Source: Tachypleus tridentatus (Eukaryota > Arthropoda > Merostomata > Xiphosura > Limulidae). Taken from it: DNA of 64,000 bases. The notes under the pieces were generated by a model. It made no database searches. It was not told the DNA's origin and saw only the letters and a list, made by a program, of their open reading frames with translations. Positions within the stretch are counted from its first letter, which is position 1, and every line of letters starts with the position of its first letter. Below, piece by piece: positions 2,972 through 47,400 of the stretch. The position numbers were made by a program, and so were the translations under genes. The stretch lies in NCBI RefSeq assembly GCF_004210375.1, contig NC_134827.1, positions 102,843,285-102,907,284 of the forward strand, read 5' to 3'.

Positions 2972-4575
2972 GTAAAGTATTACGGATTTTACTGGGGCTT
3001 GTCCCAAAATATTGTAAATAAAAACTGAAACAAATAAAAGTAATTAATTTATTTTATTATTATTTTATTTAGTGTAACAGAATAGTGAACTATGTTGTGG
3101 TAATATTAACAGAGAAATTCAAATAATTTTAACTCAGAAATGATAATTAACTGATATACTGAGACAACAGCAACAGTAATAAATATTTTATATTGTATCG
3201 CACAACTTGTATTGTACAGATATAAACAAATACGATGTATGGAAAAACTCTTAGTGGTTTTGTTTAAATCACCACGTGGTTTAAAAATATATGATTCAAT
3301 ATTCTGCTTCAGGGTACTACTAATATAATTAAATTAGAACACATGTTTCTTTCCACATTCAAGCCATAATGGTCAAATTAAGAGCATTGTGTAAAAGTGT
3401 ATGTATGATTTTTTTCCATATGATAACTTTTAGCTGTATTGGTTTTCCAGTATATTTGTGGCGTTTGGTGTGTTTAACCTTTAAACAGCAGGAACGTCGT
3501 CGGTAGCGACATCAGTTGATGGTGGCTGCTGTTTAAGGGTTAAACAGTAATATCAATAGTTTATGTTTTTGGCAACCTTATAGCTATGATGAATTTGTTA
3601 TAAATCTTGTACCGTTAAATAGTTTGTAAATAACCAATAACTTACATATACTGTAAATTTTGTGTCTCTCTGTTCTACTTATAATAAAACTATTATTCTG
3701 GTTTTTTGGGACTGATCTCGATAATTACTTGGGTATTTTGTAAAAGGCATTATTACATCAACAAAACTTAGAAGGAACTAACATGTAGTATGTTCAGAAT
3801 GTAGTAGGCTTAATAACAAACACAAAATACTATCTGATGGAATTACCATGAGAAACAAAATTGCCTTTTAAAACCAGAAACATCACTAATTAGACAAATA
3901 GGTACCAATGGTTGTTCTCTTTCAGAAACTTTCTAGAACACTAGCAGATTGAAAAAAATGAAATTGAATAACTTATGCATAAAAGCGACATAAATTGAAC
4001 AACAATTATGTAGAAAACTTTTACCAACAAATGTATGGTAGAATCATTACCAATTCAGTGAAAGTTCTTTAAAGGTTTATTTTGGTAGTGCATTCACCTG
4101 GGAGTATTTCTTTGTATGGACTTTTTCTGTCTAGAGTTTTCCTTCCTCATGATTTAATAACATATACAAAGTGGAATGATTTTTTAAATTTATCTTGATA
4201 AGGTACAATACTTAAGCAGATAGTGTGTGAAATTTCATTTAAAAAGCAAAACAAGGCCTGTTGTCTTCACAATTGTATCTCACTGAATAAAGAACAAGGT
4301 GTAATGTTACTGTTACATATAAAATTACCTTTTGTTTAGAAAACACTTGGTTATATCCTATCACAAAGACTAATTAATCTAAACAAGTCATTTAGCTCTC
4401 TTTGTTTAATGTTGATAGTCATTTTAATAATTCGTATATATTTAGAGAATAATAATAAATGAAAGGTTGTCGTATGATAAAATGTTTCCTGTAAAAACTG
4501 TTGTGTGATACAAAATGTATACCATGATTTGTAACAGTTGTCCACGTATGTATGCTGTAGTTTCTGTATTTGTAG
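2972..4575 (+). other. Polycystin intron 3
   Basis: This is AT-rich intron. The only structure I see is the foldback at 3472-3545. No coding region is supported. Confidence 0.6.
3472..3545. repeat. Short foldback element
   Basis: A 21-bp arm, gtttaacctttaaacagcag + g at 3472-3492, is repeated inverted at 3525-3545 with about 19 of 21 matches. The 32-bp centre is GC-richer (gaacgtcgtcggtagcgaca). The outer ends read TTAAC/GTTAA. It looks like a tiny MITE or a stable hairpin. Confidence 0.7.
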
Positions 4576-5651
4576 GTTTGCTGGCCTACTACTCAGGAAA
4601 TGGTTATGTTACTCAACTAGGAAGAGCTCGACCATGGTCCTGGAGAATTTTCACCGAGCTAGTAGAAGCAGGCTGGCTAGATGAGCAAACCAGAGCCGTT
4701 CAAGTAGAGTTTACGACATACAATGTGAACAGTAACTTATTCTGTCATGTGACATTGTTGTTTGAGTTTGCACCCACAGGTGGCGTCTTCACTAGAAGCC
4801 ATCTCAACACTTTACGTCTGTTTCTTTACATGACAAATTTTGAGATCTTTGTAGCCATGTGTGAGGTGATGAGTGTAATTTATTTAATTGGGTTTGCAAT
4901 CAAAGAAGGAACTGACTTGTATAAACTGAGACTCCAATATTTCAAAAAATTTTGGAACTTACAAGAACTTTTGGTGGTATTACTTGGTTTTGGTTGTGTT
5001 TTCCTTTACTTTCAACGAACCTTAGAAGTTAAAAACACTTTAGGGGCTAATGATGCTAAGACTGGAAATAAATTTGTAAGTTTTACGTACGTAACTTTCT
5101 GGGATTCCACCTTATTTTACGTACAAGCCATCCTCATCTGCTTAGTGACTATTAGGTTCTGGAAATTGTTGTCTTTCAGTCCCTACATGCAAGTCCCCAC
5201 TCGAACGATGGGCAAGGCGGGGACTCCTCTACTGTACTTCGTCTTCTTACTCTCTGTTGTGATGACTGGTATGGTTTTCTTCTGTTATTTTACATTTGGT
5301 GCAAACGTGGACATGATGAGGAATTTTGTGGAAACTTTCTTTTCCTTAATCAATTTCAGCTTGGGCAGAATTGAGTTCGAAGCTATGAACGAAGCTGATC
5401 ACCTTTTCGGTCCAGTTTTTGTCAGTTTCTTTATAATATTTATAATGCTAATTCTTCTCACTTTATTCTTCACCATACTGAACAGAGCTCTGGAAGAAAC
5501 CTTACACGAAGCTCTCGGTGCAGACATTCCAGAGACCAAAGACATGTTAGATTACTTGAATCACCAGATCAACTTAATTTTTAGGAAAACAAGTATCTCA
5601 TGGGTTGAAAAGGTCTACATGAATGAAATAAATCAAAATAAAACTTTATGA
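4576..5651 (+). CDS. Polycystin-family channel, terminal exon with S2-S6
   Basis: After the acceptor tatttgtag the frame stays open for 1.07 kb to a TGA at 5649-5651. It begins GLLAYYSGNGYVTQLGR, the end of the TOP domain ('Y.G.GYV..LG'). Hydrophobic helices follow: S2 about 4815-4890, S3 about 4968-5010, S4 about 5085-5175, S5 about 5224-5295 and S6 about 5400-5495. The pore-helix region is FFSLINFSLGRIEFEAMNEA, with GRIEF where PKD2 has the LGD filter. S6 ends in LNRALEETLHEALG, more like PKD1-type than PKD2-type proteins, and the C-terminal tail is short (ends NEINQNKTL). I therefore favour a PKD1-like or PKDREJ-like member. Only this exon and three upstream exons are visible, so any large extracellular region of the gene is unseen. 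Confidence 0.93.
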
Positions 5652-8212: not shown

Positions 8213-8536
8213 ACGTGTTATATTTGTTGTAAAGAAACAAAGGCGAAATAATAAAAAATTCGTCAAAAAGTGTATTACACGTATTTTGGAATAAAACAAA
8301 TTATGAACTCCACAGAAAGTTTGTGCCAAAGAATTGAGAAATATGGACTGAATATTAGAAAACGTCTTTTTTTTTTTTTGGAATTCCAATGTTCTGGCAT
8401 GAGACTAGAAACTACAGAGGTGACTGCTGTTTGTGGTCATGTAACGTAAAGTCTGCAACATTCGAAACGAAAACGAAATTCCTTATCCAAATCTTCATTC
8501 TGCCATGAGACCTATTGTTCATAGACCTGAGGTTGC

Positions 8537-8809
8537 GGCACGGCATAGCCAGGTGGGTTAAGGCGTTCGACTCGTAATCTGAGTGTCGCGGATTCGAATT
8601 CCGGTCGCACCAAACATGCTCGCCCTTTCAGCCGTGGGGGCGTTATAATGTGATGGTCAATCCTACTATTCGTTGGCAAAAGAGTAGCCCAAGAGTTGGC
8701 GGTGGGTGATGATGACTAGCTGCCTTCCCTCTAGTCTTACACTGTTAAATTAGGGACGGGTAGCGCAGATAGCCCTCGTGTAGCTTTGTGCGAAATTAAA
8801 AAAAAAAAA
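8537..8809 (+). mobile_element. Type-1 SINE inside the family-X ORF
   Basis: A near full-length copy with the head ggcacggcatagccaggtgg, a B box (gcggattcgaattcc), the body and an A-rich end. It interrupts the family-X reading frame between RPIVHRPEV and DVPVPTP. No clear target duplication is visible. Confidence 0.9.
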
Positions 8810-9483
8810 TCCGATGTTCCTGTACCTACTCCAGTTGAGACTTTTCATAGTTTTTTCTTAATCTGATGTCAACAGAAATTATGACAAGGATTGTTTTCAA
8901 CCTGAAACATCTGGTGAACTTAGTAATTTGATGAGATATTTGGACCTTCCATGGGATTCTTCAGACTTTTTTGGGTCCATACTTCGGGCTATAAACTTAC
9001 TTCCTCCAGAGACATCATTTTACTGGTACAGAAATTATGAGAAATAATTTATACTTTTTGCAAAAAGGTTCACTGGTTTATTTCAACAATGTTGCTAAAT
9101 TAATACCATACTAAGGAGCTCAAATCTATGAACGAATTGAGTGATGATTGTTCATTGATTCTAAACAAAAGTATAAAAAGTGACTTCCTTCACAATCGTA
9201 ACATATATACATCTGTTTCTAATCCTCATTCGATTCAACTGAAAAAAATGTACAAAAACCTCGAACTTATTAATGAGATCAAACACAAAGAACATGGTTG
9301 GCTACTTGGTAGAGACTTTGTATGTTATTGGGTCAGCAATCTGGTCATACAGATTTTCCATGGTTTATGAGACTAAAATGCGTAAGTTTCAAAACAACAA
9401 AAAATGAGGATGTATATCTGTTTTACATCAAAGTTCTTCCATTCTCTTTGGTTTGTTTGTATATTTGTTACCTAACATCATAG

Positions 9484-39259: not shown

Positions 39260-40655
39260 CTTTTGGAAAAATAATATCATTTTTACTTTTTCTTGTTTCT
39301 GGACAGAAAGTGTTATTTTCCAATTGCTTATGCCTAAAGTAAATGGAAAAGACGCATTCTTCTCTTCAAACTTTGCTTTTGTGACCTGGGTAATGAAATT
39401 TTCAAATTTGCCCATTTTCCAGAAGATTCCAGGTAGATTCAGTGCTGAGTAGCTGATAGAGAATTTTATTGAACTTTCAAGAATTTTCAAGAACTTTCTA
39501 GAATGTTGTAGAATGTACAAGAAATTTCAAGAATAAGTATCCGTCTCTTCCCCTGGCTCATTCGATGCACCTCAAAGAGGAATACAACAGCATCAAGACC
39601 TTGCTAGAAGCCTTGAACTGTGATGAGTATGGCTGGGAGGTTATTGAAAACTTCAAAATGGTGGCATTTCTGATGGGTCTTCAAGTAGGCTTTACCAAGT
39701 TTCCTTGTTATCTTTGCCTTTGGGACAGCAGGGACACCGCAGCGCACTACAACAGGAAGCACTGGCCACAATTGACGGAATTCTCTGTGGGGAAACTCAA
39801 TGTCAAGTGTGAGCCACTAGTGGACCTCCAGAAGGTGTTGTTCCCACTATTGCACATTAAATTGGGTCTTATGAAAAAATTTGCCACAGTTCTTGATAAG
39901 GAGTCTGCAGCCTTCAAGTACCTTCGAGACTTCTTCTCGAAGCTGTCTGAAGCAAAGGTCAAAGCTGGTGTCTTCGTTGGACTACAAATAAAGATCCTGG
40001 AGTGCACAGAAATCCTCAAGAAGTTCAGCAGGAAGGAAAAAAAAAGCTTGGGGCAGCTTTGTCGCAATAATTCGAAAATTCTTGGGAAATCACAAAGCCG
40101 AAAATTATGTGGAACTCGTTGAGGCTCTGGTGAGAACTACGGTAAAATGGGTTGCAGGATATCTCTGAAAGTCCAAATACTTGACTCTCATCTTGATAAA
40201 TTCAAGGAGAACATGGGAGCATACTCAGAGGAGCAAGACGAGCGCTTCCACTAAGATATACTGGACTTTGAACGCTGCTACCAAGGAGCGTATAAGGAAA
40301 ACATGATGAGAGACTATATTTGGGGGCTGAGACGTGAAAGTGATTTACATTACATTCGCAAATCTCGAAAAACTACCCACATATAAACATTTTTGTATAA
40401 CTTTAGTATAAATACATGTAAATCTTGATTCATATGTTGTTTTATTCAGACCTTACGTAAGTGAAAATATGCAAATTTGTTCGTTATTACATAGAAAATA
40501 GGTTAATTTCTAAATTTCATTATCCAGGTCACAAAAGCAAAGTTTGAAGGGAATAATGGTCATTCTCTGTACTTTTACAACACAAGCAGTTAAGAAATAA
40601 CACATACTATCCAGGAACAAGATTTGAGTTACATCGTGTTATTGAATGCTTATTT
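39260..40655 (+). mobile_element. Family-X TIR transposon relic with ORF and long inverted repeats
   Basis: The 3' half of the family-X protein is readable: YPSLPLAHSMHLKEEYNSIK, then FLMGLQVGFTKFPCYLCLWD, LFPLLHIKLGLMKKFATVLD and later MGCRISLKVQILDSHLDKF, DERFH and YIWGLRRESD. The longest open frame, 39565-40122, covers the first three. An inverted repeat flanks this: 39363-39401 against 40512-40550 with about 38 of 39 matches (cttcaaactttgcttttgtg acctggg). Weaker pairing extends to roughly 39260-39410 and 40505-40655. The N-terminal half is deleted, and the C-terminal part is interrupted by several lesions, so the copy is dead. The family is seen again at 8057 and 43459. The catalytic chemistry is unknown; the CYLCLWDSR block and conserved HIKLGL and ERFH could be metal-binding or catalytic, by inference only. 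Confidence 0.8.
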
Positions 40656-43046: not shown

Positions 43047-43458
43047 GTAAGTAAAGTCACAGAGATGATCAGTTTTACTTTAGTGATCAAGAGGTTCGGC
43101 TTAGCCATTATACAGAACAAGACAAGATTTTTATTTTCAGTTTTATGACAATCTGATTATACTACCACATCCATCAGGTTTTCTGATCTACAGCTGCTTA
43201 AACAAATCCTTTTCTAGTGCATGTGAATGATATTGTAAAGACAATGTTATGTTACTCAACTATTAAACTTGCTGTTTGGTTCATAATAACAAAATTAATT
43301 TTGTAAACAATTTTCAGAAGTGAAAATTGAGGCTTTTGGAGGGATGATAAACAAAAGCTTGTGATTGCTTTTAAGTTTGACTGTTTGACTAACTGAATTT
43401 ACGATGCTGAGAATTAAAATGTACAGAAAATATATTTCTGGTGTCTTAAATTTGTATT
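43047..43458 (+). other. TRPM intron, start
   Basis: No feature is seen before the inverted-repeat element. Confidence 0.4.
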
Positions 43459-43963
43459 ACACTGGGGAACACTCATTTTGTTGCATTTAAAAAAAGACCT
43501 TTCTATAGTCAATTTGAGTGTGTTGATTTCAAATCTGAAGTCGGTTTTTGTCTGCAAGCTACAGATTTTAAGCAATTTGAACTTCAACATATGCCTTGCA
43601 GGCACGCTTGACGAACGAGGATATGTTACGTCTCTGACGATTGAGTGTGTAGCATCCACATATGTAGCAGAAGGCATCAGGCTTGTTTCTGCAATGATAT
43701 CTATTTTTGGAAGCCATGTTTGATCTGAAACAAAAGAAGAATGATCAAAATATTAGAAGCTATCTATATATATGGACGTGAAAATGCTCATACATGGTTT
43801 CACTTAGTTCACATTTGTACAATTTCATTAACCTCAAATTGCATACAAACTAGAGCTTGTAGAAAAACTAATTTCAGATTTGAAATCAGCGCCTAAAACT
43901 CCTTCAGAATCAGTTAAAATATCCAATGCAACTCAAAGTTACTGAAAAAGTGTTCCCCAGTGT
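43459..43963 (-). mobile_element. Family-X non-autonomous element with intact TIRs
   Basis: Perfect 15-bp inverted ends acactggggaacact (43459-43473) and agtgttccccagtgt (43949-43963) bound a ~505-bp element. Weaker pairing continues inward for ~125 bp on both sides; for example gatttcaaatctgaa occurs near 43526 and its complement near 43876. The minus strand from 43718 reads MASKNRYHCRNKPDAFCYIC then GCYTLNRQRRNISSFVKRAC + KAYV, the N-terminus of the same protein family as at 8057, cut off where the left terminal repeat begins. If the element runs CACTG...CAGTG, the flanks ATTA and TTAT are consistent with a 3-bp TTA target duplication. It is an internally deleted derivative lying in a TRPM intron. 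Confidence 0.82.
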
Positions 43964-44061
43964 TATTGTTCTCAAAAGAAAAATAACTTCCAGTACAATA
44001 AAGTTGTAGTTTAGACAAAATATCAGTGTAAGAGTATTTTTTAGTGATAGAAGTTGACTGG

Positions 44062-44472
44062 TTTAGTTTGTTATTGTTACATGACTCCTTAATCATAAGT
44101 AAGAGACAGTTCAGTTTGTTATTGTTAAATGACTCCTTAATCATAAGTAAGAGACAGTTCAGTTTGTTATTGTTACATGACTCCTTAATCATAAGTAAGA
44201 GACAGTTCAGTTTGTTATTGTTACATGACTCCTTAATCATAACTAAGAGACAGTTCAGTTTGTTATTGTTACATGACTCCTTAATCATAAGTAAGAGACA
44301 GTTCAGTTTGTTATTGTTACATGACTCCTTAATCATAAGTAAGAGACAGTTCAGTTTGTTATTGTTACATGACTCCTTAATCATAACTAAGAGACAGTTC
44401 AGTTTGTTATTCTTACATGACTCCTTAATCATAACTAAGAGACAGTTAAGTTTGTTATTGTTACATGACTAC
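44062..44472. repeat. Minisatellite, 48-bp unit, ~8.5 copies
   Basis: Unit gttattgttacatgactcct then taatcataagtaagagacag and ttcagttt. It merges directly into the next array, which shares the block gttcagtttgttattgttac + atgact. Confidence 0.95.
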
Positions 44473-47400
44473 TATGACTAGTACTCTTTGTTCACAAGAG
44501 ATGGTTCAGTTTGTTATTGTTACATGACTACTACTACTACTACTACTATTTATTCACAAGAGATGGTTCAGTTTGTTACTGTTACATGACTACTATGACT
44601 ACTCTTTATTCACAAGAGATGGTTCAGTTTGTTACTGTTACATGACTACTATGACTACTCTTTATTCACAAGAGATGGTTCAGTTTGTTATTGTTACATG
44701 AATACTACTGCTATTATTTATTCACAAGAGATGGCTCAGTTTGTTATTGTTACATGAATACTACTGCTATTATTTATTCACAAGAGATGGTTCAGTTTGT
44801 TACTGTTGCATGACTACACTACTACTACTACTACTTATTCACAAGAGATGGTTCAGTTTGTTGCTGTTACATGACTACTACTACTTATTCACAAGAGATG
44901 GTTCAGTTTGTTACTGTTACATTACTACTACTACTACTACTACTTATTCACAAGAGATGGTTCAGTTTGTTACTGTTACATTACTACTACTACTACTACT
45001 ATTTATTCACAAGAGATGGTTCAGTTTGTTACTGTTACATCACTACTACTACCATTTATCCAGAAGAGATGGTTCAGTTTGTTACTGTTACATGACTACT
45101 ACTACTATTTATTCACAAGAGATGGTTCAGTTTGTTACTGTTACATGACTACTATGACTACTCTTTATTCACAAGAGATGGTTCAGTTTGTTATTGTTAC
45201 ATGAATACTACTGCTATTATCTATTCACAAGAGATGGCTCAGTTTGTTATTGTTACATGAATACTACTGCTATTATTTATTCACAAGAGATGGTTCAGTT
45301 TGTTACTGTTGCATGACTACACTACTACTACTACTACTTATTCACAAGAGATGGTTCAGTTTGTTGCTGTTACATGACTACTACTACTTATTCACAAGAG
45401 ATGGTTCAGTTTGTTACTGTTACATGACTACTACTACTATTTATCCACAAGAGATGGTTCAGTTTGTTATTGTTACATGAATACTACTGCTATTATTTAT
45501 TCACAAGAGATGATTCAGTTTGTTACTGTTACATGACTACTACTACTACTACTACTTATTCACAAGAGATGGTTCAGTTTGTTACTGTTACATGACTACT
45601 ACTACTACTACTACTTATTCACAAGAGATGGTTCAGTTTGTTACTGTTACATGACTACTACTACTACTACTACTATTTATTCACAAGAGATGGTTCAGTT
45701 TGTTACTGTTACATGACTACTATGACTACTCTTTATTCAGAAGAGATGGTTCAGTTTGTTACTGTTACATGACTACTATGACTACTCTTTATTCACAAGA
45801 GATGGTTCAGTTTGTTATTGTTACATGAATACTACTGCTATTATTTATTCACAAGAGATGGCTCAGTTTGTTATTGTTACATGAATACTACTGCTATTAT
45901 TTATTCACAAGAGATGGTTCAGTTTGTCACTGTTGCATGACTACACTACTACTACTACTACTTATTCACAAGAGATGGTTCAGTTTGTTGCTGTTACATG
46001 ACTACTACTACTTATTCACAAGAGATTGTTCAGTTTGTTACTGTTACATGACTACTACTACTATTTATCCACAAGAGATGGTTCAGTTTTTTATTGTTAC
46101 ATGAATACTACTGCTATTATTTATTCACAAGAAATGGCTCAGTTTGTTATTGTTACATGAATACTACTGCTATTATTTATTCACAGGAGATGATTCAGTT
46201 TGTTACTGTTACATGACTACTACTACTACTACTACTTATTCACAAGAGATGGTTCAGTTTGTTACTGTTACATGACTACTACTACTACTACTACTTATTC
46301 ACAAGAGATGGTTCAGTTTGTTACTGTTACATGACTACTAGTACTACTACTACTTATTCACAAGAGATGGTTCAGTTTGTTACTGTTACATTACTACTAC
46401 TACTATTTGTTCACAAGAGATGATTCAGTTTGTTACTGTTACATGACTACTACTACTACTTATTCACAAGAGATGGTTCAGTTTGTTACTGTTACATGAC
46501 TACTACTACTACTTATTCACAAGAGATGGTTCAGTTTGTTACTGTTTCATGACTACTACTACTACTACTACTTATTCACAAGAGATGGTTCAGTTTGTTA
46601 TTGTTACATGACTACTACTACTACTACTACTTATTGACAAGAGATGGTTCAGTTTGTTACTGTTACATTACTACTACTACTATTTATTCACAAGAGATGA
46701 TTCAGTTTGTTACTGTTACATGACTACTACTACTTATTCACAAGAGATGGTTCAGTTTGTTACTGTTACATGACTACTCCTACTATTTATTCACAAGAGA
46801 TGGTTCAGTTTGTTACTGTTACATGACTACTACTACTATTTATTCACAAGAGATGATTCAGTTTGTTACTGTTACATGACTACTACTACTATTTATTCAC
46901 AACAGATGATTCAGTTTGTTACTGTTACATGACTACTACTACTTATTCACAAGAGATGGTTCAGTTTATTACTGTTACATGACTACTACTACTATTTATT
47001 CACAAGAGATGATTCAGTTTGTTACTGTTACATGACTACTACTACTATTTATTCACAAGAGATGATTCAGTTTGTTACTGTTACATGACTACTACTACTA
47101 CTACTACTTATTGACAAGAGATGGTTCAGTTTGTTACTGTTACATTACTACTACAACTACTTATTCATAAGAGATGGTTCAGTTGGTTACTGTTACATTA
47201 CTTCTACTACTATTTTTTCACAAGAGATGGTTCAGTTGGTTACTGTTACATTACTACTACTACTATTTATTCACAAGAGATGGTTCAGTTTGCTACTGTT
47301 ACATTACTACTAGTACTACTACTATTTATCCACAAGAGATGGTTCAGTTTGTTGCTGTTACATTACTACTACTACTATTTATCCACAAGAGATGGTTCAG

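Follow-up and report, generated by a model that had tools for sequence, protein, structure and literature searches.

The feature at 43460-43962 of the window (the whole 64,000-nucleotide stretch of DNA that was analysed) is, with a probability of roughly 0.93, a non-autonomous Chapaev3-type DNA transposon (MITE) of the horseshoe crab Tachypleus tridentatus, a class assignment made by comparison with described features. The assignment rests on the CAC/GTG ends, the TWA target between A and T, and the C(2)C/LH/H(4)H motifs of the corresponding full-length protein, all of which match published features. The element is a cleanly documented, ordinary example of a known element kind. This fits the statement that all arthropod species investigated had Chapaev together with other CMC superfamilies (PMC6327564).

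The window element starts with CACTGGGGAACACT and closes with its exact reverse complement, AGTGTTCCCCAGTG. The original prediction gave it perfect 15-bp ends and the limits 43459..43963; the ends are indeed perfect, but the 15-bp repeat takes in the flanking A/T, and the element proper therefore runs for 503 bp from CAC to GTG. Its parts are as follows.

43460..43962, minus strand: the whole MITE, CAC to GTG, 503 bp, with its coding remnant on the minus strand (from the sequence and the genome copies)
43949..43962, minus strand: 5' terminal inverted repeat, CACTGGGGAACACT when read on minus
43460..43473, plus strand: 3' terminal inverted repeat, the identical 14 bp when read on plus
43457..43459, no strand: target-site duplication TTA, left copy
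43963..43965, no strand: target-site duplication TTA, right copy
43578..43962, minus strand: kept 5' part, full-length positions 1-387 (97% identical to full-length locus L062)
43460..43580, minus strand: kept 3' part, the last 121 bp of the full-length element (98% identical to L062)
43578..43717, minus strand: remnant of the transposase ORF, approximately the first 46 codons, zinc-finger-like, with CYIC
43524..43580, plus strand: subterminal imperfect inverted repeat, left arm (81% identical to the right arm)
43834..43888, plus strand: subterminal imperfect inverted repeat, right arm

Where the deletion joins them, the two kept parts share 3 bp. The inner inverted repeats, predicted at about 125 bp, extend for approximately 120-130 bp with gaps, and their strongest block reaches 81% over 57 bp. 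The minus-strand ORF opens at 43717 and is 49 codons long, of which about 46, close to the 45 first codons originally proposed, correspond to the full-length protein up to the deletion junction. TTA is present on each side of the element; when random window positions were drawn at the same spacing, an equal 3-mer was found in 2.3% of draws and an equal TWA in 0.19%. Adjoining the MITE is a tandem-repeat array (44044-44480, with a unit of about 48 bp by eye), in which long repetitive ORFs are open on both strands. Elsewhere in the window, at 4515-5651, there is an ORF of 378 codons, which we take to resemble a polycystin/PKD2-type channel.

The genome of Tachypleus tridentatus (2,167,478,450 bases in 205 contigs) was searched for further copies. 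The Coagulin family (PF02035) has 19 matches in this genome, every one above the family's cut-off, and none in 14 control genomes. With the 505-bp query, 33 of the 40 best-scoring places, out of 849 first-look candidates, span at least 499 of the 505 bases at 95-100% identity, the window copy included. In the remaining seven, the main matching piece is positions 120-505 only, and three of these (L061, L062, and L063) were retrieved. These copy counts are lower bounds, since only the best-scoring candidates, which are not a random sample, were aligned; the first-look totals for the MITE (849) and for the full-length element (1,090, below) overlap because the ends are common to both. Could the structure be an inverted repeat that arose by chance, or a local palindrome, and no transposon at all? 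A 12-base end allowing two mismatches has 3 matches in the window against a mean of 3.24 in shuffled sequence, so that the end by itself is no commoner there than chance would give. However, the near-full-length copies lie on many contigs, mostly between different flanks, and empty sites exist (below); so many copies exclude chance, and the probability of such a coincidence is effectively nil. The element that was originally proposed is, in short, a real one.

The copies also form a MITE in the usual sense, being shorter than 600 bp, derived from a longer coding element by internal deletion, homogeneous, and numerous. Their lengths are 498-512 bp (n = 30 copies), and the median divergence from the majority sequence is 1.2% among the 30 best-scoring copies. 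In 30/30 MITE copies examined, the first ~387 positions of the full element run directly into its positions ~2034-2154, with exactly the same junction limits in 27 and limits a few bases off in three, which upholds the proposal of an internally deleted transposon. The junction sequence is GAAGTTCAAATTGCA in 26 of the 30, and the other four carry a single substitution. On either side of the deletion, the full element reads GAAGTTCA-TCTTGG and AATGTCA-AATTGCA, so that TCA is common to both borders. The simplest reading of this uniformity would be a single founding deletion that was amplified afterwards.

Three further loci (G000:C1:31097570-31098371, C1:33065515-33066496, and C3:61415299-61415926) carry the two parts of the MITE approximately 120-470 bp apart, and probably derive from this element too, through different internal deletions. 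The MITE also recurs about 225 kb away from the window copy (C3:103111472-103111979) at 98% identity, with reverse-complement flanks, and a 172-amino-acid stretch of the related sequence at 39532-40287 recurs at 100%, about 138 kb away and on the other strand (G000:C3:102744992-102745507). The region is thus in part either duplicated or wrongly assembled.

Target sites were tabulated for 35 copies (30 MITEs and five full-length elements) with an end search that tolerated at most two errors per 10-base end and demanded CA/TG. Among the parsed copies, 34/35 have CAC...GTG inverted termini, the exception being L016, which is altered at both ends. The 3 bp to the left of the element equal those to its right in 33/35 copies (all except L003 and L023), the left flank is TAA or TTA in every copy, and an A precedes and a T follows the duplication in 34/35 each. 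By eye, these 35 copies represent approximately 28 separate sites, as seven share the flanks of another copy. A duplication of TTA had been suggested from the window copy; its length holds, and TTA is what the window copy shows, but across the family the target is TWA (TTA or TAA).

Joined flanks were made from eight copies, and two of these were searched in the genome. For L012, two empty sites were found (L074 and L075), both of which agree with its joined flanks at 132/137 positions and carry a single TAA. The joined flanks of L005 gave, besides occupied sites, matches of at most 78%, and were left out as an empty site. L065 sits in a tandem array whose neighboring units show a single TTA, which is also an empty site. 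The empty sites at these two insertions (L012 and L065) confirm that three bases are duplicated, and the length of the duplication, which the original prediction had asked to be tabulated, is constant. A 4-bp duplication of TATT, with ends ACACTG...CAGTGT, suits the window copy and not others by eye (e.g., L004), and was ruled out also by the three bases at the empty sites; a 4-bp duplication abutting CAC fits 0/35 copies. Transib elements produce a 5-bp target duplication. Transib was ruled out by the 3-bp duplication at the empty sites.

Full-length elements with both ends and a complete ORF, another check that had been proposed, do exist. L061 (2,152 bp) and L062 (2,151 bp) are full-length with both ends present, as are L065, L066, and L067, and L063 is truncated. 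When the 2,151-bp element was used as a query and the best 40 of 1,090 first-look candidates were scored, 38 covered at least 99% of it (the query included) and two covered 92-97%, all at 97-100% identity. The frames of L061 and L062 are interrupted, and those of L065 (569 codons), L066 (574 codons), and L067 (569 codons) run without interruption; the frame is thus open in three of five full-length copies checked, which were chosen by score. The first ~46 codons of this ORF are the remnant found in the window element. Neither an unrelated transposase between these ends, in the full-length copies examined, nor an inconstant duplication length was found; either had been named as grounds for rejecting the prediction.

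The protein begins with pairs of cysteines (CYIC at 17, CHNC at 61, and CYFC at 97 in L065 numbering), followed by D272, D326, C(2)C at 345-348, LH at 393-394, H(4)H at 502-507, and SDEQGER from 519. The C(2)C, LH, and H(4)H motifs therefore occur in that order. In a four-sequence alignment, D270, D324, C343, C346, L391, H392, H500, and H505 (L071 numbering) are invariant. For the DDE catalytic triad described for Chapaev3, D270 and D324 are candidate members, whereas the Glu is ambiguous: of its two candidate positions, each is altered in one copy of the two that represent a related family (family B, below). Compared with family B, the present family shows a saturated pS of 0.77 and a pN of 0.36, as expected for a protein that has long been under selection; among young copies, a pN/pS-type ratio of 0.48-1.40 was obtained, as expected if copies drift once inserted. 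Searches of Pfam and, by sequence, of the PDB gave no significant match for the transposase, with only sub-threshold zinc-finger and other weak matches; in the PDB this was a zinc-finger chain at a non-significant E of 0.079. Two fold predictions, the first of which took in 29 of 38 listed segments together with L065 and L066, are of low confidence (pLDDT 40 and 47), too low for an RNase-H fold to be read from them. Relatives were looked for in viral contigs, and none was found there. Given the lack of a significant Pfam model, such genes may sit as uncharacterised proteins in arthropod annotations.

The window element had been described as the third copy of a "family X". According to tblastn, only two other stretches of the window are related to it, and these are taken to be copies 1 and 2 of that description.

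8359..9319, plus strand: decayed pieces of a further related family, 27-50% identical, not part of the element (tblastn)
39532..40287, plus strand: broken transposase from another family related to this one (39% identical), and no part of the element (tblastn)

The grouping does not survive, as these stretches belong to different families, and the relatives of copy 2 have ends different from those of the MITE. A query made from copy 2 gave 9,450 first-look protein candidates, which may include related families; 150 of these were scored, at 75-100% identity. Candidate ends like CACTATGTAACA with equal TWA flanks were found at 6/30 loci from the copy-2 search (L034, L039, L041, L045, L048, and L054) and at 0/8 other loci, in a paired-end scan that required TWA, CAC/GTG, and 12/15 matching end bases, and left a recurring end sequence optional. 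At L034 and L039, one end has two possible partners each. Around copies 1 and 2 in the window itself, the same scan gave no paired ends. Another family, family B (L071 and L072), has CACTGGTTTACAAA ends and a protein 47% identical to the present transposase, with a TTA duplication in 2/3 copies and differing flanks in L073. The frames of L071 and L072 are open from stop to stop for 581 and 559 codons. At least two related families besides that of the MITE, each with ends of its own, are therefore present in the genome, and the presence of several Chapaev3-like families in Tachypleus tridentatus explains the original "family X".

The original prediction compared the ends with those of CACTA/EnSpm elements. 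CACTA and Chapaev3 are both placed in the CMC (CACTA-Mirage-Chapaev) megafamily, according to the silkworm report (PMC4079192), so that the comparison found the correct megafamily and missed the branch within it. That the element is a CACTA/EnSpm element proper is extremely unlikely. It shares with that group the CACT- ends, a 3-bp duplication, and the megafamily itself, and CACTA even stands at the start of the elements related to window copy 2. Among the 35 copies of the present family, however, the termini are CACTG or CACAG, with CAATG in one copy, and none has CACTA. Its duplications are TWA with near-fixed flanking bases, as reported for Chapaev3, and among the Pfam matches listed at E up to 10 for the proteins scanned, none is to an En/Spm-type model. 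The remark that the protein is not CACTA-like was incomplete, since it does contain motifs reported for the CMC megafamily, to which CACTA belongs. The copy-2 relatives with CACTATGTAACA ends, for their part, begin with CACTA, yet have equal TWA flanks as in the CACTGGGG family.

In the descriptions given in PMC4079192, Chapaev elements have CAC/GTG termini and 3-4-bp duplications, and the Chapaev3 elements examined there insert between A and T, duplicate TWA, and have paralogous empty sites. That the element belongs to a CMC lineage of its own, as yet unnamed, with Chapaev3-like ends and target site but not nested in Chapaev3, is very unlikely; it draws on the comparison with Chapaev3 being by description only and on Pfam and the PDB holding no matching model, while the termini, the duplication, the flanking bases, and the motif set all agree with Chapaev3, and the size is near that of its silkworm member, Garfield_BM. 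Among titles and abstract starts in the openly licensed PMC literature, no paper was found on Chapaev3 in horseshoe crabs; two papers (PMC5745447 and PMC9976928) contain both terms.

The MITE is probably moved by the enzyme of its longer sister copies and would make no transposase itself. The transposase made by full-length copies would recognize the termini CACTGGGGAACA, possibly together with the subterminal repeats, excise the MITE, and insert it where A-TWA-T occurs, cutting the target with a stagger of 3 bases. A single founder, which could have arisen through abortive gap repair, would then have spread through cross-mobilization. The uninterrupted transposases (three of five checked), the near-identical full-length copies, and the one homogeneous MITE would fit a Chapaev3 system that was recently, or may still be, active in the horseshoe crab, alongside a MITE that it may mobilize, a reading that is less likely than not. 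If this is the case, the animal would offer a transposase together with its natural donor, in a superfamily that has seen few tests. The open-frame full-length copies and the MITE constitute a ready pair with which Chapaev cutting and the choice of TWA could be tested.

The closest described counterpart is Garfield_BM of the silkworm, which, in PMC4079192, is 2,289 bp long and encodes a 556-amino-acid transposase, against 2.15 kb and 569 amino acids here. Like the horseshoe-crab element, Garfield_BM has CAC/GTG ends, a TWA target between A and T, and the C(2)C, LH, and H(4)H motifs (PMC4079192). Unlike Garfield, which has two exons, the horseshoe-crab ORF is uninterrupted, and most other Chapaev3 elements appear to be single-exon in that account (PMC4079192). 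The hosts differ, and the terminus CACTGGGGAACA is particular to the horseshoe-crab family. Chapaev3 MITEs are described in the same source as direct internal deletion derivatives (PMC4079192). Among these, GarfieldN1_BM offers the nearest parallel to the window element, as a MITE that arose when a full-length Chapaev3 in its own genome lost an internal stretch, and whose copies have diverged little, although it belongs to another host and another family (PMC4079192).
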